Positions 1,576 through 47,854 of a stretch of DNA of 52,757 bases are shown here, in pieces. How positions within the stretch are numbered: position 1 is the stretch's first letter; each line of letters opens with the position of its first letter. A program made the position numbers and the translations under genes. The notes beneath the pieces were generated by a model. It was not told the DNA's origin, did no database searches, and saw only the letters and a program-made list of their open reading frames with translations. The stretch comes from a virus. The stretch covers positions 1 through 52,757 of IMG/VR virus record IMGVR_UViG_3300013014_000040. One strand, given 5' to 3'.

Positions 1576-3249
1576 CTATCTAAACTGAGATTCTAGTCCT
1601 TTAACAATAAATCGGCCGGTTATTTTAAACGGCTCGCCGTATATTTTAGGGTCTCTAATCACAATACCTTCATGTCCGCTAACTGGTCCTAAGGGTGAGC
1701 TTAAAGCTTCTAATACTGCATTACCCAATTCCATTGTAGCTAAATAAATAACAAAACCGTTAATTACTTTTTCTACATCTTTAGGATCGGCTAACATTTT
1801 AGCAGCATCTTCGCCTTGCGATAAAGCTAGCAATACTTGTTTTGATTGAGCCCCAATTGTCTTACCGTCAGCTAACTTAACCGTACTTTCTTTTTCATTA
1901 GTAGCTCCTGCTAACCATTGACTTAACGTCTTTGATATTTTTTTACCGTTAACGGTGATAGAATATTTTTTAGCTAGCTCCCCTGCAAAGTCTGGTTCTT
2001 TATCTAAGGTAGTCGGAACAGATCCTAGTACTTCGAACCCATATTCATTTGCAGTCGGGGTTAAATTGTTCAATAGATCTTGCATTGACTTCTTATTATA
2101 AGTTACCTCTTTAGTAGCACGACGCTTAGGTGTTACTTGTTCAATTTCTAATAATCCATGTATTGCTAAGAAGTTTTTATTATATGATAATACATTAGTA
2201 GAACCAGCTACATACTCAATATTGAATAAGATATTAGGGTTGTCCCATAGACCTAATGATTTAAGTTGAATGGTTATATCTGGTATAGCATCATTAAAGA
2301 TGTCTAATACTTTACCACCTGTTACTATCATGCCATGACCAGCACCGAACCGCGCTTCTAAGTCTGCCTTTGTTACGCCTTTAACATCTAAAGGTTTATT
2401 TGATCCACGGTCCATTACAAACTGGCGTCTGCCGGCAACGTTAATTAATCGTATAGAGGCATTTACTCCGTCAATCTTAACTGATGCAGGGCCTTTCTTA
2501 AGATACTCTGCTGCTCGCGCAAATACTTTAACTAGATCTTTTCCATTTTTTACTGAAGGAATATCAAACGGATGTGCCATATGGCCACCTGCGCCTCCCT
2601 CCACTATCAAATCTTTCAATTTCATTTTACTTTCCGTTAAGTTTTTTTTTATCATAGTATATGTAGCAGGATCATACCAACCCATTATTTTCTTAAATGT
2701 ATCGGGGCTACTAGTCTTTAAAGCATTTCTTAATGATGTACCCGACATTTCACCGAAGCCGGGAATATTTAATGATACATGGGGGGCTACAATTAAGTAT
2801 CCATGCTTATCATATCCTTGAAGATTATTTTTATTGCTTGCATACGGTTGAAAGTAAGAAGGATCTCCGCTCTTTTTAGGCTTCATAGAAAATCTAGGAT
2901 CATCATCCATATCTTTTTGACCTACCATGAATACTACTACTGTAGTAGCGGGGTCAAATCGACTTAATAGTTCCGTAGGAGTATAAGGTAGTTTAGTGTT
3001 TACTACATTTTTTATACCATACTTTGAAATAATAGTTTTCTTATCGGCAAAAGAAAATGGAGATCTGCCTTTTTCGGTTTTATCGCCGGTGGCTATAAAA
3101 GTATTTTCAGCTCCAAATTGATTTTGTAACCAGGTAAATGCTTTTGCATGATGATTACCAAACGGCTGAAAACGTCCAGGATAAACTGCTATAATACGTT
3201 TACCGGTATCTTCTGTTATAACTGATGCTAGCCAACTGCCTAAATTCAT
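1576..3249 (-). CDS. NMN-adenylyltransferase-like domain fused to a DNA/RNA ligase-like domain
   Basis: 557 residues in two enzymatic parts. Residues 20-205 look like a nucleotidyl (NadM/cytidylyl-type) transferase: GRFQPFGNHH at 25-34 replaces the usual GRFQPFHxGH, and GEMSGTSLR at 166-174 matches the ISGTxIR signature. Residues 218-557 are a covalent nucleotidyltransferase of the ligase superfamily: KIDG at 258-261 (predicted AMP-accepting Lys258), FNIEYV, EGIVIR at 527-532 and FKITG at 541-545. The N-terminus ends in VITE13|D, and the junction reads MKLKDLIVE217|GG; both fit the (L/I)xE rule of T4-type prohead proteases. Met209 also has a ribosome-site-like CGGAAAG before it, so the ligase part may be made separately. 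Likely roles are nucleic-acid repair or NAD metabolism; the substrate is unknown. Confidence 0.8.
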   Translation of the reverse strand: MNLGSWLASVITEDTGKRIIAVYPGRFQPFGNHHAKAFTWLQNQFGAENTFIATGDKTEKGRSPFSFADKKTIISKYGIKNVVNTKLPYTPTELLSRFDPATTVVVFMVGQKDMDDDPRFSMKPKKSGDPSYFQPYASNKNNLQGYDKHGYLIVAPHVSLNIPGFGEMSGTSLRNALKTSSPDTFKKIMGWYDPATYTMIKKNLTESKMKLKDLIVEGGAGGHMAHPFDIPSVKNGKDLVKVFARAAEYLKKGPASVKIDGVNASIRLINVAGRRQFVMDRGSNKPLDVKGVTKADLEARFGAGHGMIVTGGKVLDIFNDAIPDITIQLKSLGLWDNPNILFNIEYVAGSTNVLSYNKNFLAIHGLLEIEQVTPKRRATKEVTYNKKSMQDLLNNLTPTANEYGFEVLGSVPTTLDKEPDFAGELAKKYSITVNGKKISKTLSQWLAGATNEKESTVKLADGKTIGAQSKQVLLALSQGEDAAKMLADPKDVEKVINGFVIYLATMELGNAVLEALSSPLGPVSGHEGIVIRDPKIYGEPFKITGRFIVKGLESQFR

Positions 3250-31228: not shown

Positions 31229-31846
31229 TTAAATTATTTCGTCAATTATTCCAAATTCTAATAACTGATTTGCTGTTAGAAACAAATCTGTTTTCTGTTG
31301 CTGTCTCCACCATTCAGCTGGTTTCTTAGTACGTTTTGCTAAAACATCGCAAACATCATCTTCAATTAATTTTAGATTGTTAATGTAAGCTGTCATGTCA
31401 CTCATCTTAACTCCATCCAAGTAACTACTTGATTCATGGAACATTACACATGAACGTTTACTAACCATTCTAGTACCGGTACCACATGCTAATATTACAG
31501 CAGCTGCTGAAAATGCTCTGCCACGGCAAATTGTATTTACTTTAATATCTAAAGTTTCAATATAATCGATAATACCTAACATATCATATACATCACCTCC
31601 ATTAGAGTTGATAATTAAATTGATAGGATCTGTATTACCTTCTTCTCTATTATTTAAGATAGCACGTATCTTAATCATTAAGTCAACTAAAGTAGTTCCA
31701 GTAACATCATCATTAAGATAAATTACTGAATCATTAAAGTCAATTAATGTTGTTAATTGTTCTGTAACCTCTGTATAAAGGCTTGTAGTCTCTTTATCAT
31801 CCTTGATAACCGACTTTTTCGTATTGTTTTCTTCGTATATACTCAT
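31229..31846 (-). CDS. clpP: ClpP-family serine protease
   Basis: 205 residues, the usual ClpP length. Catalytic Ser113 lies in GRAFSAAAVI and His137 in CVMFHESS; the glycine-rich INSNGGDVYDM (80-89) forms the oxyanion strand. The Asp is expected in the IEDDVCDVLAKRT helix. In phages such proteins may serve in head maturation or protein turnover; T4 uses the unrelated gp21 fold for prohead cleavage. No ClpX partner is in the window. A promoter-like site lies just before its ATG. Confidence 0.88.
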   Translation of the reverse strand: MSIYEENNTKKSVIKDDKETTSLYTEVTEQLTTLIDFNDSVIYLNDDVTGTTLVDLMIKIRAILNNREEGNTDPINLIINSNGGDVYDMLGIIDYIETLDIKVNTICRGRAFSAAAVILACGTGTRMVSKRSCVMFHESSSYLDGVKMSDMTAYINNLKLIEDDVCDVLAKRTKKPAEWWRQQQKTDLFLTANQLLEFGIIDEII

Positions 31847-33480: not shown

Positions 33481-33650
33481 TAGCTAATTTCTATACGATC
33501 CATTGCAAATCTAATTCGGCTGCGAATTTCGTTTAAGCGTCTAATAGCTTCATTGGTATCGACAGATTTCCTTTCAGCTAAATCAATTAAAATCATGGCC
33601 ATATTATCAGCCTCATCTAATCTACGTAATACATTGTCTTTGTCTTTCAT
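33480..33650 (-). CDS. Small helical protein, unknown function
   Basis: 56 residues starting MKDKDNVLRRLDEADNMAMI, a single charged amphipathic helix pair. Its stop and the next ATG overlap (TAATG), and its ATG overlaps the UV-endonuclease stop by four bases, so it is translationally coupled on both sides. Function unknown; it may assist one of its neighbours. Confidence 0.6.
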   Translation of the reverse strand: MKDKDNVLRRLDEADNMAMILIDLAERKSVDTNEAIRRLNEIRSRIRFAMDRIEIS

Positions 33651-34699
33651 ATTAAAACCTTTTGTTGATTATTATAATTATAAATATTTCTCCACTTTAA
33701 AAGTGCTAATTCTTTGGCTTTTGCTTCGATCATAATATCGACCTCATAGCCATATGTATTGATAGGATGAATAATATAATCGGCATGTGCCGTTATTTTA
33801 ATCTTATCAAAGTCTTTTTTATATTGGGCAAATGTCGGCCAAGTAAGTAATTCGGTCAATGGAATATTATGTTGGGCACTAACCTGTTCTAACATCAATT
33901 GATACTCCGTACGGCGTGATTCGCTATAATGGCAACATTGTATAATACCTGTCGGCCATGTACTACGAGCCATTTCAAATGCTTCTTGTTCGGATAAACT
34001 ACCTGGATGTAAACTATGATGAAAATAGTCAAAGGTAATAGGAATACCAATATTCTGATGAATGAACGAGTATAGCATAGATACACTATACATACTAGGC
34101 TTGTCATCATTTTCAAGTACTAAACGTGCCTTGCAACGATCCGACAATCGTTCCCAATTTTTCATCCAAGTATAAGCAGTACCCTCAGGGTCACCATAAA
34201 CGCCACCGACATGAATGTTAATTTTATTTTCATATGAAGGAGCAAAACCCATCATATCAAACATCTCAGAATGTCGTTCTAAGCTAGTAATGCTCTTGTT
34301 AACTACATCTTCGCGAGAACCGCCTAAGATATGGAACGGCCCTGGATGTGTAGTAAGTCTATGACCATGTGCCCTAGCAAACTCGCCGCATTCGAAAAGT
34401 ATTCTACTAATCTCATCATAGCCTGGTAATGTATGTAATTCATAATGATCAGCCCATGGTATCAATTCAGACCCTATACGAAATAAACGAATGTTATTCT
34501 CTTCGTTCCACTTAAGGATATGCAAAAGATCTTTTGCATTAAGAATAGCAATATCGCTAAGTTTCTTAAGGTCGTTATTAGGAAACCATGACTCTTTGCG
34601 TACCCCACGCCCGGTAAGGATACGACCACCTAACTTGTTAGGACGGGCTGCCAATGTATTATTGATACATGCATACCCTAAACGTACTTTTTTATTCAT
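33647..34699 (-). CDS. uvsE: UV-damage endonuclease (UvsE/UVDE)
   Basis: 350 residues, near the 300-350 typical of the family. RLGYACINNTL at the N-terminus, FRIGSELIPWAD, LTTHPGPF (metal His), NIHVGGVYGDPEG, LVLENDDK (metal Glu) and ITFDYFHHSLHPG (Asp/His) are the expected TIM-barrel metal-site motifs in order. It nicks DNA 5' to UV photoproducts, giving repair independent of the host UvrABC. The -7-like element of a promoter-like site ends only four bases before the ATG. Confidence 0.93.
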   Translation of the reverse strand: MNKKVRLGYACINNTLAARPNKLGGRILTGRGVRKESWFPNNDLKKLSDIAILNAKDLLHILKWNEENNIRLFRIGSELIPWADHYELHTLPGYDEISRILFECGEFARAHGHRLTTHPGPFHILGGSREDVVNKSITSLERHSEMFDMMGFAPSYENKINIHVGGVYGDPEGTAYTWMKNWERLSDRCKARLVLENDDKPSMYSVSMLYSFIHQNIGIPITFDYFHHSLHPGSLSEQEAFEMARSTWPTGIIQCCHYSESRRTEYQLMLEQVSAQHNIPLTELLTWPTFAQYKKDFDKIKITAHADYIIHPINTYGYEVDIMIEAKAKELALLKWRNIYNYNNQQKVLI

Positions 34700-37674: not shown

Positions 37675-38070
37675 TTATTTTTGTTTTGGTATCGGAGTTG
37701 TTCGGCGACCTCCTTTGGTTCTCATCTCCTCTAACTCATCAGCTACATCTAGTTCAGCTAAAATGAAACGAGTCAATACTCCCTTCTCTCCAATTAAAGA
37801 TGCTAATGTCTTATATTGATTATATGGAACATCACTACCAGCAGCATCTTTTGCTGTCTTAGCCATTGTAGATAATCTAGCGGTAATTTCATTACGAAGT
37901 TGTGAACGTAATAAAACTCCATACCCTGTAATATGTACTTCAGGATCGACTGGATCGAAACTCTTTGGATCTGTTAATGAACCGTAACGTCCTGCGCCTT
38001 CGGCTAATACATCACGTACTTCTGATTCAATTAACTTAAACAATTTATTTTTAAAATCTTTCCCTTCCAT
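37675..38070 (-). CDS. Candidate capsid-targeted protein with (L/I)xE leader
   Basis: 131 residues. The leader MEGKDFKNKLFKLIESEVRDVLAE|GAG ends in VLAE before Gly, matching the T4 prohead-protease rule and resembling the leaders at 43.5-45.4 kb. The mature part is helical with several Ala/Leu repeats and a basic tail (GGRRTTPIPKQK). No enzyme motif. Packaging is inferred from the leader. Confidence 0.6.
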   Translation of the reverse strand: MEGKDFKNKLFKLIESEVRDVLAEGAGRYGSLTDPKSFDPVDPEVHITGYGVLLRSQLRNEITARLSTMAKTAKDAAGSDVPYNQYKTLASLIGEKGVLTRFILAELDVADELEEMRTKGGRRTTPIPKQK

Positions 38071-40185: not shown

Positions 40186-41337
40186 TTATTTATATTGTTT
40201 ACCTGTCGTCGCATTTATCAGTGTCAAATTGACATTTTTATCTTGTAAACGATTCTGAACAGCATCCAGGTTTGCTAGGCTGTCGTCCATGAATTTTATA
40301 TTAGTGTAACCTCTGTTTATTTGTTTCTCAATCCAATCAGCCTTCTTCTCAGGATCACTGCTTCCAGTACCAACTACATAAGTATTAATGCCGTATGAAT
40401 CACGTAAATGTTTCATGATAGGAAAGGCAATTCTACGCGCTGTTAGTATTGTTGTCTTAATAGACGGATTGGCTAATGACTTTTTAATTTGTTGAATATT
40501 CCTCATTATAGGAAGTGACTTCTTAATGATTTTATCGAAGTTAGAAAAGTCATATTTTTCGCCTGGCTTTAACTTATGTGTAGCAAATGCATGGCTATCT
40601 AATTCATATGTACTTCCATCCGGACGTTGAACGACTACAGACGATTGTGTCTTAACTAGTGTATCATCGAAATCATACACATGTAATGTTTTACCCTGCA
40701 CTTCATTAAGTCCTTTTACCTTCTGGTATCCAGATCCGTACGGAGATGATTTACCGGTATCAGTATATGTATCCGGGTCTAGATTTTCACGTTTCTTCTT
40801 GTTACCCCAGTTTGCAGCGCCTACCTTACGACATGCACTCAAAGCCAGAGAGCCGTACGCTGATGGCCATACATCATATCTAGCTTTTACTTTATGATAA
40901 CAAGCATCCTTTTCACCCTTAGCTTCAGTTTTAACATTGATAGCCTTTTTACCTGGCTTACCTTTACCGGAATACTTATCACGTTTTCTACGAACTGCGG
41001 ATTCTTTTTCTTTATCGGACATTGCAGATGCCTTTGATGCTGGTACACATTTTGGATACGCACGTTTACCGCCCGATCTAGAACCTGAATCTGCAGATGC
41101 ACCGCATGCGGGATGACCGCCACCTGGTTTAGTACGTGATATATCTACCCAACGTTGCTTAACCCATTTACGTAAATCTTCTTGTAATGGATCTGTTAAT
41201 ATACCTTCATGCATACGTAGAGCCGTTAAGTATTTTTTTAACGCAGTTTCATTGCCATCAGTGCAGCCGACTTTCTTTCCACTGTCCTTCTTATACACGC
41301 AATACTTATTATCTACTTTTCTATAGGTATATGGCAT
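40186..41337 (-). CDS. HAD-family phosphatase fused to a Cys/Lys-rich phage domain
   Basis: 383 residues. Residues 1-185 form a basic, Cys-containing region with HPACGASADSGSRSGGKRAY then PKCVPASKASAMS, a pattern found in many T4-like phage virion proteins. Residues 205-383 form a HAD hydrolase: YDFDDTLV (Asp212, Asp214), ILTARR (motif II Thr), a Lys near 333 and KFMDDSLANLD (motif IV). Polynucleotide-kinase phosphatases have this type of HAD domain, but no kinase part is seen. It may process 3'-phosphates, which would fit the ligase encoded at 1576-3249; that link is an inference. Confidence 0.75.
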   Translation of the reverse strand: MPYTYRKVDNKYCVYKKDSGKKVGCTDGNETALKKYLTALRMHEGILTDPLQEDLRKWVKQRWVDISRTKPGGGHPACGASADSGSRSGGKRAYPKCVPASKASAMSDKEKESAVRRKRDKYSGKGKPGKKAINVKTEAKGEKDACYHKVKARYDVWPSAYGSLALSACRKVGAANWGNKKKRENLDPDTYTDTGKSSPYGSGYQKVKGLNEVQGKTLHVYDFDDTLVKTQSSVVVQRPDGSTYELDSHAFATHKLKPGEKYDFSNFDKIIKKSLPIMRNIQQIKKSLANPSIKTTILTARRIAFPIMKHLRDSYGINTYVVGTGSSDPEKKADWIEKQINRGYTNIKFMDDSLANLDAVQNRLQDKNVNLTLINATTGKQYK

Positions 41338-41339
41338 AA

Positions 41340-42101
41340 TTAAAATTTTATTTTATCAAATATGTTTTTACGGTTAAGTACGAACGTATCCAGCTTCGTT
41401 TCAACCTTCATATCAATTGGCAGTTTCGCTAAATTCTTTTTTATAAATGCTTGATATAATCTACCACGGCGACTATCAAGGCTAGAAGTAGGGGTATCTG
41501 AGTTTACATTAGTATCAGATTTAGGTGCTATATATATTGTCTGAACTACACACGTGTATTCATCATCATTAATTGATATAACTAGTCCTTCTACACGATC
41601 TATATAATCTTTTATACATTCTATAACTGTAGACATTACACGATATTGTTCATTGAGATTAGTTTCCGGTTCTTCATGTGCAACATCTGTTGATATTGTA
41701 AATGATACATTAGTTCTTACTAATAGTACACCAGCTTCCGATTTACTTTTAGGCATATATGTATGGTCATGACCAGCGTTATCTAGTTGTGTTGCAAGAT
41801 TAATAATATAAAAGGCTTTTGGATTAACTTCTGATTGTGCTATATACTCAACCTTAATCCAACCAGTTTCTTTAATATTATGACGTCCCATTATATTTTG
41901 TGCGGAAAGTTTAATCTTTCTAACAGGGTCGGAAGCAGATCTCCACTTCAACGGCTTAGCAGTGCTTTCACCTACTTCGTTAATAGCTTCTTCGTCAATA
42001 GGAACACAGTTAGGTACTTGTCTATCGCCTTTCTTTTTCATACCGACCTGCTTATAGCCTTTCCAGCATTCTTCAGTCAATATGTTTTTAAGCTTAAGCA
42101 T
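41340..42101 (-). CDS. Candidate capsid-targeted protein with CWKGYK motif
   Basis: 253 residues. The leader MLKLKNILTE|E ends in ILTE, a possible prohead-protease site. Right behind it ECWKGYKQVGMKKKGDRQ then VPNCVP is a Cys/Lys-rich motif also seen near the ends of T4-like phage structural proteins. The main body is mixed alpha/beta with a HDHTYMPKSKSEAGVLLVRT stretch. No known enzyme motif is seen. Confidence 0.6.
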   Translation of the reverse strand: MLKLKNILTEECWKGYKQVGMKKKGDRQVPNCVPIDEEAINEVGESTAKPLKWRSASDPVRKIKLSAQNIMGRHNIKETGWIKVEYIAQSEVNPKAFYIINLATQLDNAGHDHTYMPKSKSEAGVLLVRTNVSFTISTDVAHEEPETNLNEQYRVMSTVIECIKDYIDRVEGLVISINDDEYTCVVQTIYIAPKSDTNVNSDTPTSSLDSRRGRLYQAFIKKNLAKLPIDMKVETKLDTFVLNRKNIFDKIKF

Positions 42102-43570: not shown

Positions 43571-43822
43571 TTAATCAGCAGCATATTCATCATTTGCTTC
43601 TTGTTTCGCAGCATCAATAATATCAATAATGCAATATGCTAATCTATCCGCGGATTTATTGTCTAAGTTTACACCTATCGACTGTAACTCCTTTTCTAAT
43701 GCGGCTACGGCAGCTTTAACTTCTCCTTCTAGTCTAGGAGTAATGGCATTTAAAATAGCTCCTTCATGAAGGGCTTTACTAACCTCTTCACGGATAATTT
43801 GTTTTAGTTGTTTTGAATTCAT
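43571..43822 (-). CDS. Candidate capsid-targeted protein with MNSKQL leader
   Basis: 83 residues from the ATG at 43822, chosen because AAGGAC lies just before it and because its leader MNSKQLKQIIREEVSKALHE|G matches those of two other genes here. The site ALHE|GA fits the (L/I)xE rule. The mature part is acidic and helical (AAVAALEKELQSIGVNLDNK). Function unknown. Confidence 0.65.
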   Translation of the reverse strand: MNSKQLKQIIREEVSKALHEGAILNAITPRLEGEVKAAVAALEKELQSIGVNLDNKSADRLAYCIIDIIDAAKQEANDEYAAD

Positions 43823-43832
43823 TTTATTGTCC

Positions 43833-43883
43833 TTATATATGTATTTTTTCACGGATAATTTGTTTTAGTCGACTTGAGTTCAT
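43833..43883 (-). pseudogene. Truncated copy of the leader (16-codon remnant)
   Basis: Reads MNSSRLKQIIREKIHI then stop. The 34 bases at 43850-43883 differ from the leader of the neighbouring gene (43789-43822) at about four positions. No protease site follows, so this is either a decayed gene start or a tiny peptide. The gene upstream stops just before its ATG. Confidence 0.55.
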
Positions 43884-43886
43884 AAT

Positions 43887-44429
43887 TTATTTACCAATTC
43901 TAGGTTTAATATCAGAGGGGAGAGGTCCTGTCGATGTAATTTTAATATCATCATTCTTAAGAAATACTTTTTTAAGTAAATGTCGTTGTTTTGAATCTAA
44001 ATTATGTTTACGCGAAAAAAATTCTACATCAGTCGAAGTTGGGTTATCAACTGTCGAGCTTTTAAATCTTTTAATAAGTTGTTTATCGCTAGATGATAGA
44101 TAAGGTACAGTCACTGTATCTTTAATAAGCGATACTACAGCGCTTAAAGGACCTGTCATGGTAACTTCATCTTCCATGTTTCCAGCAGCTAACTCTTTAG
44201 CATCTCTACGTCCCGCTTTTTTGTAGATTTGTGTTAAGATATCTTCAACCTCATTACGTGCATTTTCATCTTTTGGGTTTGATATACGTACGTCCATCGC
44301 TACTTTTAATTTGTTTATAAGAATACTACTGATAGTAACACTCTTACCGTCAATACTGATGGTTTCAGCTTCTTTCAATACGTTCCAAATCTCTTCACGT
44401 ATAATTTGTTGTAGTTGTTTTGAATTCAT
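43887..44429 (-). CDS. Candidate capsid-targeted protein with MNSKQL leader
   Basis: 180 residues from the ATG at 44429, chosen because its leader MNSKQLQQIIREEIWNVLKE|A agrees with the other family members; the frame extends further upstream without an equally good start. The mature part includes SISIDGKSVTISSILINKLK and ends basic. No enzyme motif recognised. Confidence 0.65.
   Translation of the reverse strand: MNSKQLQQIIREEIWNVLKEAETISIDGKSVTISSILINKLKVAMDVRISNPKDENARNEVEDILTQIYKKAGRRDAKELAAGNMEDEVTMTGPLSAVVSLIKDTVTVPYLSSSDKQLIKRFKSSTVDNPTSTDVEFFSRKHNLDSKQRHLLKKVFLKNDDIKITSTGPLPSDIKPRIGK
44368..44429 (-). repeat. Leader repeat, copy 2 (62 bp)
   Basis: Matches 45324-45385 at 59 of 62 positions; both encode MNSKQLQQIIREE...VLKEA. 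Homology is confined to the leader, with unrelated sequence beyond. Confidence 0.8.
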
Positions 44430-44439
44430 TTCATTATCT

Positions 44440-44649
44440 TTACAATTCATGATAACCAGCATTAGCCTGGTTGATGTAAACTTCTGCTTGAGAAATATGG
44501 CCTTGTATCCAAGCCGGAAGATTCTTTTCCGTCTTACCAACCTTTTGTGAAAGTTCTACAGCTGAACGTGCAATTACCAACAATTGTTGTTGAACCATTT
44601 TAACTTCATGGTCTTCGTCTGCTTCTTTGAGTAAGTTTTTTAGTTTCAT
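44440..44649 (-). CDS. Candidate capsid-targeted small protein with MKLKNLLKE leader
   Basis: 69 residues. MKLKNLLKE|ADEDHEVK has the candidate site LKE|A after only nine residues. The mature part is one helix of mixed charge with an Ala/Gly/Tyr end. It overlaps the next gene of the same leader type by four bases. Function unknown. Confidence 0.6.
   Translation of the reverse strand: MKLKNLLKEADEDHEVKMVQQQLLVIARSAVELSQKVGKTEKNLPAWIQGHISQAEVYINQANAGYHEL
44621..44649 (-). repeat. Short leader repeat, first copy (29 bp)
   Basis: Differs from 44851-44879 at a single base and encodes the same MKLKNLLKEA start in two adjacent genes. Confidence 0.75.
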
Positions 44650-44879
44650 TTGCGTAAATCTATTTGTTTTAGCCGAGCTTGTATTTGAACTAACTCACGT
44701 TTTGATAGTATCAACCATTTTCTAATATCTTTATGTTCAATAAGTCTAGCTGCGTCATCAATAGATTGCATTAACTCATCAACTGATGAAACAACATTTA
44801 CTAACGCTTGATGTTGTTTTGGTTCTAAGTAAGTTGTTAACTGACCAGAAGCTTCTTTAAGTAAGTTTTTTAGTTTCAT
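44646..44879 (-). CDS. Candidate capsid-targeted small protein with MKLKNLLKE leader
   Basis: 77 residues with the leader MKLKNLLKE|ASGQL, then an alpha-helical body (VVSSVDELMQSIDDAARLIE) and a basic end. Stop and start overlap with neighbours at both ends. The mature parts of this protein and the adjacent 69-residue one do not look alike, although their leaders are nearly identical. Confidence 0.6.
   Translation of the reverse strand: MKLKNLLKEASGQLTTYLEPKQHQALVNVVSSVDELMQSIDDAARLIEHKDIRKWLILSKRELVQIQARLKQIDLRK
44851..44879 (-). repeat. Short leader repeat, second copy (29 bp)
   Basis: Partner of 44621-44649; one mismatch in 29 bases. Confidence 0.75.
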
Positions 44880-44881
44880 AA

Positions 44882-45385
44882 TTATACTTTAAACTTTTTA
44901 ACGACATCTGCTAACTTGTTATAATGCTTAGCAACGAAAGCAGGATCTATTTCATAGACAGAATACCCAAAACTCGATAAAGCTTCGTTAACATCCGTTA
45001 GAGCTTTTGCAAGCTTTTTATCTTTAAGCATTTCAGCGCTATCATCATCACTACATATAGCAAAAAGTGTATCTGTGTTATCGGATAAAAGATCTAAAAC
45101 CTTTTTGAAGTCTGCGTTGTCACCTGTTTTATAAAATTTAGAGAAGTCCAATAAGAATTTTGCAAGATACTCAATACCTTTAAACTTTTTAAAGCCTGAT
45201 ATAGTTTCGCCTTCATAGTCTTCATAGTCATCATCCAATACAGAAGCTGTTAGTGGAGTTGTTACTAGTTTAAGTATCTGGTCAAATTTGTTAAAGTCTA
45301 AATCTTTTAACGGCGTTGACGATGCTTCTTTCAATACGTTACTAACCTCTTCACGTATAATTTGTTGTAGTTGTTTTGAATTCAT
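44882..45385 (-). CDS. Candidate capsid-targeted protein with MNSKQL leader
   Basis: 167 residues. MNSKQLQQIIREEVSNVLKE|ASSTP is the clearest form of the long leader. The mature part is acidic and helical, with aromatic residues and several Asp/Leu runs. It is the first gene of the leader-bearing group as transcribed, just after an ATATTTAT motif. Function unknown. Confidence 0.65.
   Translation of the reverse strand: MNSKQLQQIIREEVSNVLKEASSTPLKDLDFNKFDQILKLVTTPLTASVLDDDYEDYEGETISGFKKFKGIEYLAKFLLDFSKFYKTGDNADFKKVLDLLSDNTDTLFAICSDDDSAEMLKDKKLAKALTDVNEALSSFGYSVYEIDPAFVAKHYNKLADVVKKFKV
45324..45385 (-). repeat. Leader repeat, copy 1 (62 bp)
   Basis: 59/62 identical to 44368-44429; a third, more diverged copy lies at 43761-43822. 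Confidence 0.8.
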
Positions 45386-46204: not shown

Positions 46205-46528
46205 TCAAAACTTTGTTCCATTTGCACTGCGACATAAATCTAACACCAGCATTGTTTCATGAACCTCAACCTTAACAGGATCGGCAAACCCAATTAGCAC
46301 ATATTCATGTGTCAAGCCATATCCTCGATTTACGCTCGCACACCACGTGCCCAAGCGCTTCTTACCGGTCTCCGAATTTAGTATCCATACATCGCCATCA
46401 TGACGACCCAGACGTGCAAATTGTGCTCTACCAGCGGCAGTCTCTGCAAGACATACGATCAGCGTATTGCTAGCTGGCATCCATTCCCATTGGGGGCTCG
46501 GCCAAGCATTAAGTGTTACGGTTTCCAT
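46205..46528 (-). CDS. Member 5 of the Trp-rich paralogous family
   Basis: 107 residues from METVTLNAWPSPQWEW; the start at 46528 is preferred over 46564 because the other members begin about 10-20 residues before the WxW motif. It keeps WEW, the NSETGKK segment equivalent to HNPATG, and beta-like strands, but is the most diverged member. Function unknown. Confidence 0.55.
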   Translation of the reverse strand: METVTLNAWPSPQWEWMPASNTLIVCLAETAAGRAQFARLGRHDGDVWILNSETGKKRLGTWCASVNRGYGLTHEYVLIGFADPVKVEVHETMLVLDLCRSANGTKF

Positions 46529-46838
46529 GTTTATGATAATTTGCGCGTAGGATGTCATAGTCATCCCATACAGTTAATTTAACGACACGCCCTTTGGGGT
46601 TATTTGTACAAGGTACCCGGGCCATGAAAGCTACATAATGATTCAGCCATTGGGAGTATTTGTTAAAGCGAGCATGGTTACCGGTTGCTGGGTTATGGAC
46701 GCGTACGGTATGCGCATGCCAGGTATCACCTAGATCTGATACTATAGGAAACAATTCCCATCGGGTAATGTGAATGGTATCAGTTCTGGTTTCCCATATA
46801 AAGGTACCTGGATCTAATCTATAGCTTAACGTGGTCAT
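46509..46838 (-). CDS. Member 4 of the Trp-rich paralogous family
   Basis: 109 residues. LDPGTFIWETRTDTIHITRW and TVRVHNPATGNHARF are nearly the same as in the neighbour at 46819. A final VVKLTVWDDYD corresponds to LQVWDN there. Predicted all-beta and soluble. No catalytic residues identified. Confidence 0.65.
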   Translation of the reverse strand: MTTLSYRLDPGTFIWETRTDTIHITRWELFPIVSDLGDTWHAHTVRVHNPATGNHARFNKYSQWLNHYVAFMARVPCTNNPKGRVVKLTVWDDYDILRANYHKHGNRNT

Positions 46839-47220
46839 CGGCCCATTTTTTAGGTGTTATTAAATTAGGTGTATCAGGATGTATATAGCGCGCTCTGTAT
46901 TGAGCCCACCCTGTAGCATTATCCCATACTTGCAAGGTATATGCTTCATCCATAGTCTTAAAGGTTGCCATGGTGAGTCTTCCATCGGCGCCTACTACGC
47001 TGTGGTCATAATGAAATATCATCTTGCCATTAGTTACGCGATTGTGAAGGCATATGGCTTCACCATGACGTGCCATGCCATCTAGATTCATCGCTGTATT
47101 ATCCTGCAGGTCCAACAACGCATAACGAATGATGTGGATAACACCTATATCCGGGAACCATGCCCACACATGTGAGCCCGGATCAAGTATTCCTACGTGT
47201 CCTACTACTCCGCGCGTCAT
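46819..47220 (-). CDS. Member 3 of the Trp-rich paralogous family
   Basis: 133 residues, the longest member. LDPGSHVWAWFPDIGVIHII and AICLHNRVTNGKMIFHY follow the family pattern. Starts within an ATGA overlap with the previous gene. Function unknown. Confidence 0.65.
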   Translation of the reverse strand: MTRGVVGHVGILDPGSHVWAWFPDIGVIHIIRYALLDLQDNTAMNLDGMARHGEAICLHNRVTNGKMIFHYDHSVVGADGRLTMATFKTMDEAYTLQVWDNATGWAQYRARYIHPDTPNLITPKKWADDHVKL

Positions 47221-47528
47221 ATGTCACCTCCTTTTATGCGTTCTTCCCATTCTGATGGTACCCATACCATCATGGTTAAGGTTGGGTCTTCTTCGCTGCG
47301 AAAAAGCTTGCAATAGCATGTCATACCCCAATTGGCATCATGGTAATGCTGAAATATCTTGGTGACGCCTGTAGCTGGATTATGTACCCGTAATGCTGGA
47401 ATATCCTCGCCCATGTGCTGTGGTGCTCCTGCACCGTACAACATCCAGGCATTGACATGGAAATGGTATTCAGCAGCATTCCAACGCCAATACTTGTTAA
47501 ACTGTTCACTTAGAAAAACTGTCATCAT
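47217..47528 (-). CDS. Member 2 of the Trp-rich paralogous family
   Basis: 103 residues from the ATG at 47528, chosen because AAAGGAG precedes it and the start overlaps the upstream stop as ATGA. YWRWNAAEYHFHVNAW, then ALRVHNPATGVTKIFQHY and MMVWVPSEWE are the family landmarks. Function unknown. Confidence 0.65.
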   Translation of the reverse strand: MMTVFLSEQFNKYWRWNAAEYHFHVNAWMLYGAGAPQHMGEDIPALRVHNPATGVTKIFQHYHDANWGMTCYCKLFRSEEDPTLTMMVWVPSEWEERIKGGDI

Positions 47529-47854
47529 ATGCTTATGCTCCTTTGTTTTTTTAGATTCTGAAGTAGCTCCCTGTTCTTCCAAATAACCATTGGTATGTTA
47601 AGGATACCCTTTTCCAGGTCCTCGGCCGCATACTTCATGCTATAGGTTCCGCGCCAGGTTTGCCGAAATACAATGGAGCCCTTAGTTTCTTCATTAATGG
47701 CTCGGATGGGGGTAGTCAGGTTATCCCAATGATAGGTACCGTGATCTCCGAATAAGAGCTCTAAGCATATATGTAATTCATCTGTAACCCATACCCAATC
47801 CTTATCACGATTGAAGCTCGATAGGTATGCGCGCAATAAACGTTCTTCTGTCAT
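47525..47854 (-). CDS. Member 1 of the Trp-rich paralogous family
   Basis: 109 residues. DWVWVTDELHICLELLFG, RAINEETKGSIVFRQTW and IPMVIWKNRELLQ fit the shared layout, although the HNPATG motif is changed to NEETKG. First gene of the array as transcribed; hairpins and a short direct repeat lie upstream. Confidence 0.6.
   Translation of the reverse strand: MTEERLLRAYLSSFNRDKDWVWVTDELHICLELLFGDHGTYHWDNLTTPIRAINEETKGSIVFRQTWRGTYSMKYAAEDLEKGILNIPMVIWKNRELLQNLKKQRSISI

Follow-up and report, generated by a model that had tools for sequence, protein, structure and literature searches.

A viral fragment of 52,757 bases, the whole of which was analysed and is called the window here, carries a gene at 1576–3249 that joins an adenylyltransferase-like half to a ligase-like half. 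The arrangement raises the question of whether the product works as one two-domain enzyme or is a precursor that is taken apart. In phage T4, the prohead protease gp21 cuts after L/I-x-E, and internal proteins reach the core of the prohead by means of leaders of 10–19 residues (PMC9026906). The junction between the two halves of the window protein ends in this same published gp21 motif. We consider it likely that this gene of a T4-type phage makes a polyprotein that is packed into the head as the precursor of two internal enzymes and is cut by the prohead protease of the phage; that the protein is cut, packaged and injected, and that both halves are active enzymes, is what we infer from the comparisons below.

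The fusion gene and its setting

The gene is an open frame of 557 amino acids on the minus strand, preceded by an AAAGGA ribosome site; the plus strand is riddled with stop codons. It was compared with 55 relatives, and further relatives, fetched later, served as a test. The original prediction of a genuine fusion gene at this position is thus borne out, with minus as the coding strand, and the motifs that it listed are all present in the protein: GRFQPF (25–30), KIDG (258–261), EGIVIR (527–532), the candidate sites VITE13↓D and LIVE217↓G (arrows mark predicted cuts) and MKLKDLIVE from Met209. T4-type baseplate genes lie within the window. No gp21 or gp23 of this phage is found on the 52.8-kb fragment, because the fragment stops before the head genes. 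Elsewhere in the window, consecutive tryptophan-rich open reading frames of 109–133 amino acids (46205–47854) resemble tandem paralogues, and genes that read as a UV-damage endonuclease (UvdE)-like protein (33647–34699) and a ClpP-like protease (31229–31846) are present.

Two enzyme-like modules

The first module spans residues 16–206 (2632–3204, minus strand) and is supported by structural alignment and profile matches. Its model aligns equally well with PPAT, NadD and NadM (VIA-align Z ~11, over about 146–161 residues), with NadM as the top Foldseek match, and profile searches return phrog_395 (E 7e-4) and, below the cut-off, CTP_transf_like (E 0.011). The nucleotide-binding motif GRFQPF (3160–3177, minus strand), of which GRFQP is invariant in alignment A2, is followed by GNHH at the canonical HxGH place. 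HxGH reads GxHH in the fusion clade and is canonical in the split-gene relatives L047 and L049. Of the predicted 'NadM-like adenylyltransferase', therefore, the adenylyltransferase fold stands and 'NadM' is too narrow a name, and the module is not called an NMNAT since the fusion clade departs from HxGH.

The second module, residues 218–557 (1579–2598, minus strand), has a predicted mature start of GGAGGHMAHPF and was modelled with a pLDDT of 90. Its best structural match is T4 RNA ligase 1 (Rnl1), at a modest Z of 8.6 (3.9 Å over 175 residues), after which the matches are almost only RNA and DNA ligases; the Foldseek match of the ligase model has an E of 2.4e-3. Nucleotidyltransferase motifs I, III, IV and V are present as K258-D260-G261, E345, E527-G528 and K542. 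The first of these is the KIDG with the nucleophile lysine (2467–2478, minus strand), the fourth is EGIVIR (1654–1671, minus strand) and the fifth, KITG at 542, comes after it. K258, D260, G261 and E345 are invariant in the alignment of relatives, and EGIVIR, E527 and K542 are nearly so. By its model, the second half has an Rnl1-like fold, and ligation activity is predicted. Structure prediction thus yields an adenylyltransferase fold and an Rnl1-like ligase fold, as expected for the two halves; the proposed 'ATP/NAD-grasping ligase' is upheld as to the ligase fold, and there is no hint that it uses NAD.

The likeness to T4 Rnl1 lies in the covalent nucleotidyltransferase fold and the motif order K-x-D-G ... 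E ... EG-V-R ... K. In contrast, sequence similarity between the two was not detected, and T4 Rnl1 is a separate gene and not part of a head precursor. Pfam RNA_ligase matches the ligase half below the cut-off (E 0.016); profile comparisons with T4 Rnl1, Rnl2 and DUF6267 gave no significant link, and the ligase profile, run against the sequences of the PDB, returned only HPr-like chance matches. A search of cellular genomes for the ligase gave four matches only, short or weak. One relative has an in-frame stop within the ligase module (L025:9162–9164); either this copy is broken or the stop is an error of sequencing.

Relatives with additional modules

In other relatives, the ligase is joined to further modules, each time with L/I-x-E directly before the ligase. 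The additions comprise Fe/Mn superoxide dismutase with a plastocyanin-like/cupredoxin module (L162), DUF192 (L161, L165 and L169), SET (L176) and HAD (L045). Effector-type domains in one polypeptide thus number two in the window protein and about four in the longest relatives. In giant precursors (L162:1250–5065, L161, L169 and L176), the ligase is preceded by an adenylyltransferase-like module together with Fe/Mn superoxide dismutase, plastocyanin-like, DUF192 or SET modules.

These observations bear on what the cargo is for. The precursor might be packed and cut, with a cargo that serves head assembly or DNA organization and does not act enzymatically in the host. T4 IPIII affects head morphogenesis (PMC9026906), and the GxHH reading in the fusion clade would suit such a role; the conservation of the ligase residues described above and the superoxide dismutase and cupredoxin modules added in relatives argue against it, and we regard this function as unlikely.

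Candidate cut sites

The window protein carries a short leader ending in L/I-x-E twice, once at its N terminus and once internally. The N-terminal leader MNLGSWLASVITE (residues 1–13; 3211–3249, minus strand), with a predicted cut at E13↓D, is kept in the window's clade. The internal copy forms the spacer SKMKLKDLIVE (207–217; 2599–2631, minus strand), which is of the stand-alone type, with a predicted cut at E217↓G. A second candidate cut, NLTE206↓S, precedes it (E206, 2632–2634, minus strand). The site motif L/I-x-E is short, and in its strict form, L/I-x-E↓[GASD], it occurs in the 557-residue protein only at E13, E206 and E217, all in segments predicted to be disordered or linkers. In the full-length model, only residues 1–14, residues 208–222 and the last four residues fall under a pLDDT of 50; E13 and E217 lie inside the first two of these stretches, and E206 sits just ahead of the second, in a block with a pLDDT of 63. 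The two cut sites proposed originally, E13 and E217, hold up on these grounds, the latter also being kept in relatives.

The N-terminal leader is absent from the L016–L050 clade, so that the first module there has only the internal leader. Across eight long relatives, sites number 27 in 3,536 residues outside recognised domains versus 6 in 5,262 inside them, a 6.7-fold enrichment (p=2e-6) that partly restates the junction logo because junction sites are included in the count.

The junction is conserved where the linker varies

Among the 55 relatives, the two halves are joined by linkers of differing length and content, and some relatives have inserted modules. In a first set of 20 divergent junctions, the residue before GG is E in 18, C in one and the start Met in one, and P3 is L or I in 18. 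A test set of 41 further junctions, whose linkers share less than 60% identity with the first set and with each other, gave E in 39/41, C in 2/41 and L/I at P3 in 40/41; these junctions are not fully independent because the sequences are related by descent. P2 and almost all upstream positions vary freely. Counted as distinct sequences, 82 fused ligases include 81 with E, and 52 stand-alone ligases comprise 46 with E, 5 with the start Met and 1 with C. Such a fusion also occurs in the Microcystis phage Mel-JY01, a culturable relative, where the freed ligase would begin GGLGGHM.

The stand-alone ligases of relatives begin with T4-like leaders, such as MKSFKQFIINE↓GG, MISFKQFLLE↓GG and MKTFKNYILNE↓GG, and L047 and L049 encode the two halves in separate genes, each of which has its own leader. 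Cysteine replaces E just before GG in three lineages (L018–L021; L138, L258, L265 and L266; and L193), which read LLVC, LLLC or LLTC. Of these, L193 has gp21 on its contig all the same. In the L053 family, the protein lacks a leader and opens with M-GG; Met removal would presumably yield the same GG start. A link between the lack of gp21 and the lack of a leader in this family was considered and rejected, since the leader is missing in G039, where both gp21 and gp23 are present.

Similar leaders open other proteins of the window

The original prediction had likened MKLKDLIVE to leaders of stand-alone proteins, and the match is found in the window itself, where two small proteins (44440–44649 and 44646–44879, minus strand) begin MKLKNLLKE↓A. 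Of all 14,756 9-mers that lie inside proteins of the window, MKLKDLIVE is the single one to score this well against MKLKNLLKE. A second type of leader, MNSKQL(K/Q)QIIREE...E↓, begins three further window proteins, with unrelated sequence beyond it: MNSKQLQQIIREEVSNVLKE↓A of the protein at 44882–45385 (minus strand) is common to those at 43571–43852 and 43887–44540. Leaders were also assigned to the protein at 37675–38070 (MEGKDFKNKLFKLIESEVRDVLAE↓G) and to the downstream neighbour of the fusion gene at 999–1553 (MATEKELRNEIRKHVRNILAE↓S), both on the minus strand. At 40186–41337 (minus strand), LNE precedes a part resembling HAD/polynucleotide 3′-phosphatases (phrog_415, a weak match at E 0.0047). 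Counted across the window as a whole, such leaders are not significantly enriched (5 observed versus 2.7 expected); in the relatives G001, G004 and G007, the count is above that of shuffles.

The HAD/phosphatase-like part at 40186–41337 comes after cysteine-containing repeats (phrog_727) and is like the module inside the precursor of L045. A further, short module, CWxGYKQxGxKKKGxxxVPNCVP, recurs in leader-bearing proteins and precursors (41340–42101, L038, L039, L041 and L050), and its PHROG families also match S-SZBM1_139, a protein reported in virions.

These data can be set against a plain two-domain cytoplasmic enzyme, in which L-x-x-E-G-G would belong to the structure where the ligase fold begins and would never be cut. 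Such an enzyme would account for the C-terminal place of the ligase in most fusions and for the conservation of GG, which might be part of the fold. It would not lead one to expect junction residues that are predicted to be disordered, P2 and nearly all upstream positions that are free to vary, M directly before GG in the L053 family, or an L/I-x-E ending that also closes the leaders of unrelated window proteins. We therefore hold an uncut enzyme to be improbable.

That translation also begins at Met209 or Met224, giving two overlapping products, is very improbable and was rejected. A complete leader does begin at Met209, a strong SD-like stretch lies ahead of Met224, and the annotation of T4 gp21 includes an internal start. 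Yet the ribosome-like site once proposed ahead of Met209 is weak, at −3.5 kcal/mol, a strength reached by 21% of random positions; Met209 is confined to the window and its closest relatives; and the stretch before Met224 is what its glycine codons give anyway (observed mean −9.9 versus −9.6 expected from synonymous codons, 33 sequences). Of the two alternatives offered originally, a polyprotein or overlapping products, the polyprotein is thus retained; this reading is well supported by comparison, through the conserved junction, the leaders of split-gene relatives and the gp21 of relatives described next.

Many relatives encode a gp21-type protease and head genes

A gp21-type protease is encoded in 12/17 and 12/20 of the relatives' contigs, including most of the longer ones; contigs that miss it are mostly short fragments, the exception being the 122.7-kb contig G005. 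Of the relatives' records, 10/18 include gp23, and gp23 of relatives carries QLVTE↓A where T4 gp23 has FLTE↓A. In G007, the fusion gene is followed on one strand by terminase, portal, gp21, a gp22-like protein (assigned by position and reading) and gp23, the last three lying 10–15 kb downstream of the fusion gene and gp21 ~10 kb away.

Known head cargo and virion proteins

The arrangement resembles the T4 internal proteins IPI–III and Alt in the short leader ending in L/I-x-E, in the location in a late gene region and in the presence of gp21 and gp23 in relatives, whose leaders resemble T4 capsid targeting sequences. It differs in that T4 cargo is one protein per gene, whereas here each precursor holds at least two enzyme modules, set apart by leader-like spacers. 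Polyvalent proteins of phages and conjugative elements (PMC5512222) likewise combine several unrelated enzyme domains in one polypeptide that is thought to be head-packed, but that paper attributes their release to peptidase domains within the polypeptide. In the 557-residue precursor, no peptidase was detected, and the sites fit the phage's own prohead protease.

Analogues in particles come from the T4-like cyanophages S-CREM2, S-SCSM1 and S-SZBM1, in whose virion preparations mass spectrometry is reported to have detected NMNAT-like/cytidylyltransferase proteins (PMC10665884, PMC9602691, PMC9146016), although the S-CREM2 authors noted that such proteins might be contaminants. The genes of these proteins start with MKNFSSFLTE↓A, MKSFLQFLKE↓A and MRFRQFIIE↓A, respectively; a leader of this kind is absent from the NMNAT of S-CBWM1, a phage that is not of the T4 type. 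These virion proteins share with the window protein a HIGH-type nucleotidyltransferase and a capsid-type leader, but belong to another nucleotidyltransferase subfamily. Head delivery is supported by this analogy, through the leaders of the three cyanophage proteins. In S-SZBM1, a DUF6267 protein with a KWDG motif is the neighbour, and the two are adjacent or fused in several cyanophages.

DUF6267 (464 phage records, mostly of cyanophages), as at L109:21478–22671 (S-SZBM1_141) and L111:1492–3267 (S-PM2d138), has KWDG and EGFV motifs and adjoins or is fused to a cytidylyltransferase. It is possibly a second ligase-like family; its comparison with the ligase of the fusion gene gave a non-significant hhalign E of 0.12.

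A model for the precursor and its meaning

Because the tags resemble the head's own packing-and-cutting signals, both enzymes are probably packed in the head, separated there and then injected. In the proposed sequence of events, the N-terminal leader and the internal leader-like spacer would act as T4-type capsid targeting sequences that bring the precursor into the prohead core, where a gp21-type protease would cut after L/I-x-E at E13, E217 and probably E206. Cutting would separate the adenylyltransferase-like enzyme from the ligase-like enzyme, the latter with GGAGGHM at its N terminus, and both would enter the host along with the DNA. Their likely use would be immediate counter-defence or repair, such as RNA sealing or restoring NAD or a related nucleotide. 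Early repair and counter-defence have been argued for phage NAD and RNA-repair systems generally (PMC9503650, PMC7824862), and the predicted functions of both modules are compatible with them.

More broadly, and with somewhat less confidence, we favour the view that a widespread class of T4-type phages makes its head cargo as polyproteins of up to about four enzyme modules (counting adenylyltransferase, 3′-phosphatase-like, superoxide dismutase, cupredoxin, DUF192, SET and ligase), separated by spacers of the capsid-targeting type and freed within the prohead by the phage's own maturation protease. A search of the open-access literature found no paper describing such cargo polyproteins cut by a head protease. 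If this view is correct, a T4-type head protease would play the part of the polyprotein proteases of eukaryotic RNA viruses, turning one product into several delivered enzymes in a fixed ratio. The cut sites would then offer a simple way to spot injected phage effectors from sequence alone, and RNA sealing and the repair of nucleotide cofactors would be placed at the first moments of infection.
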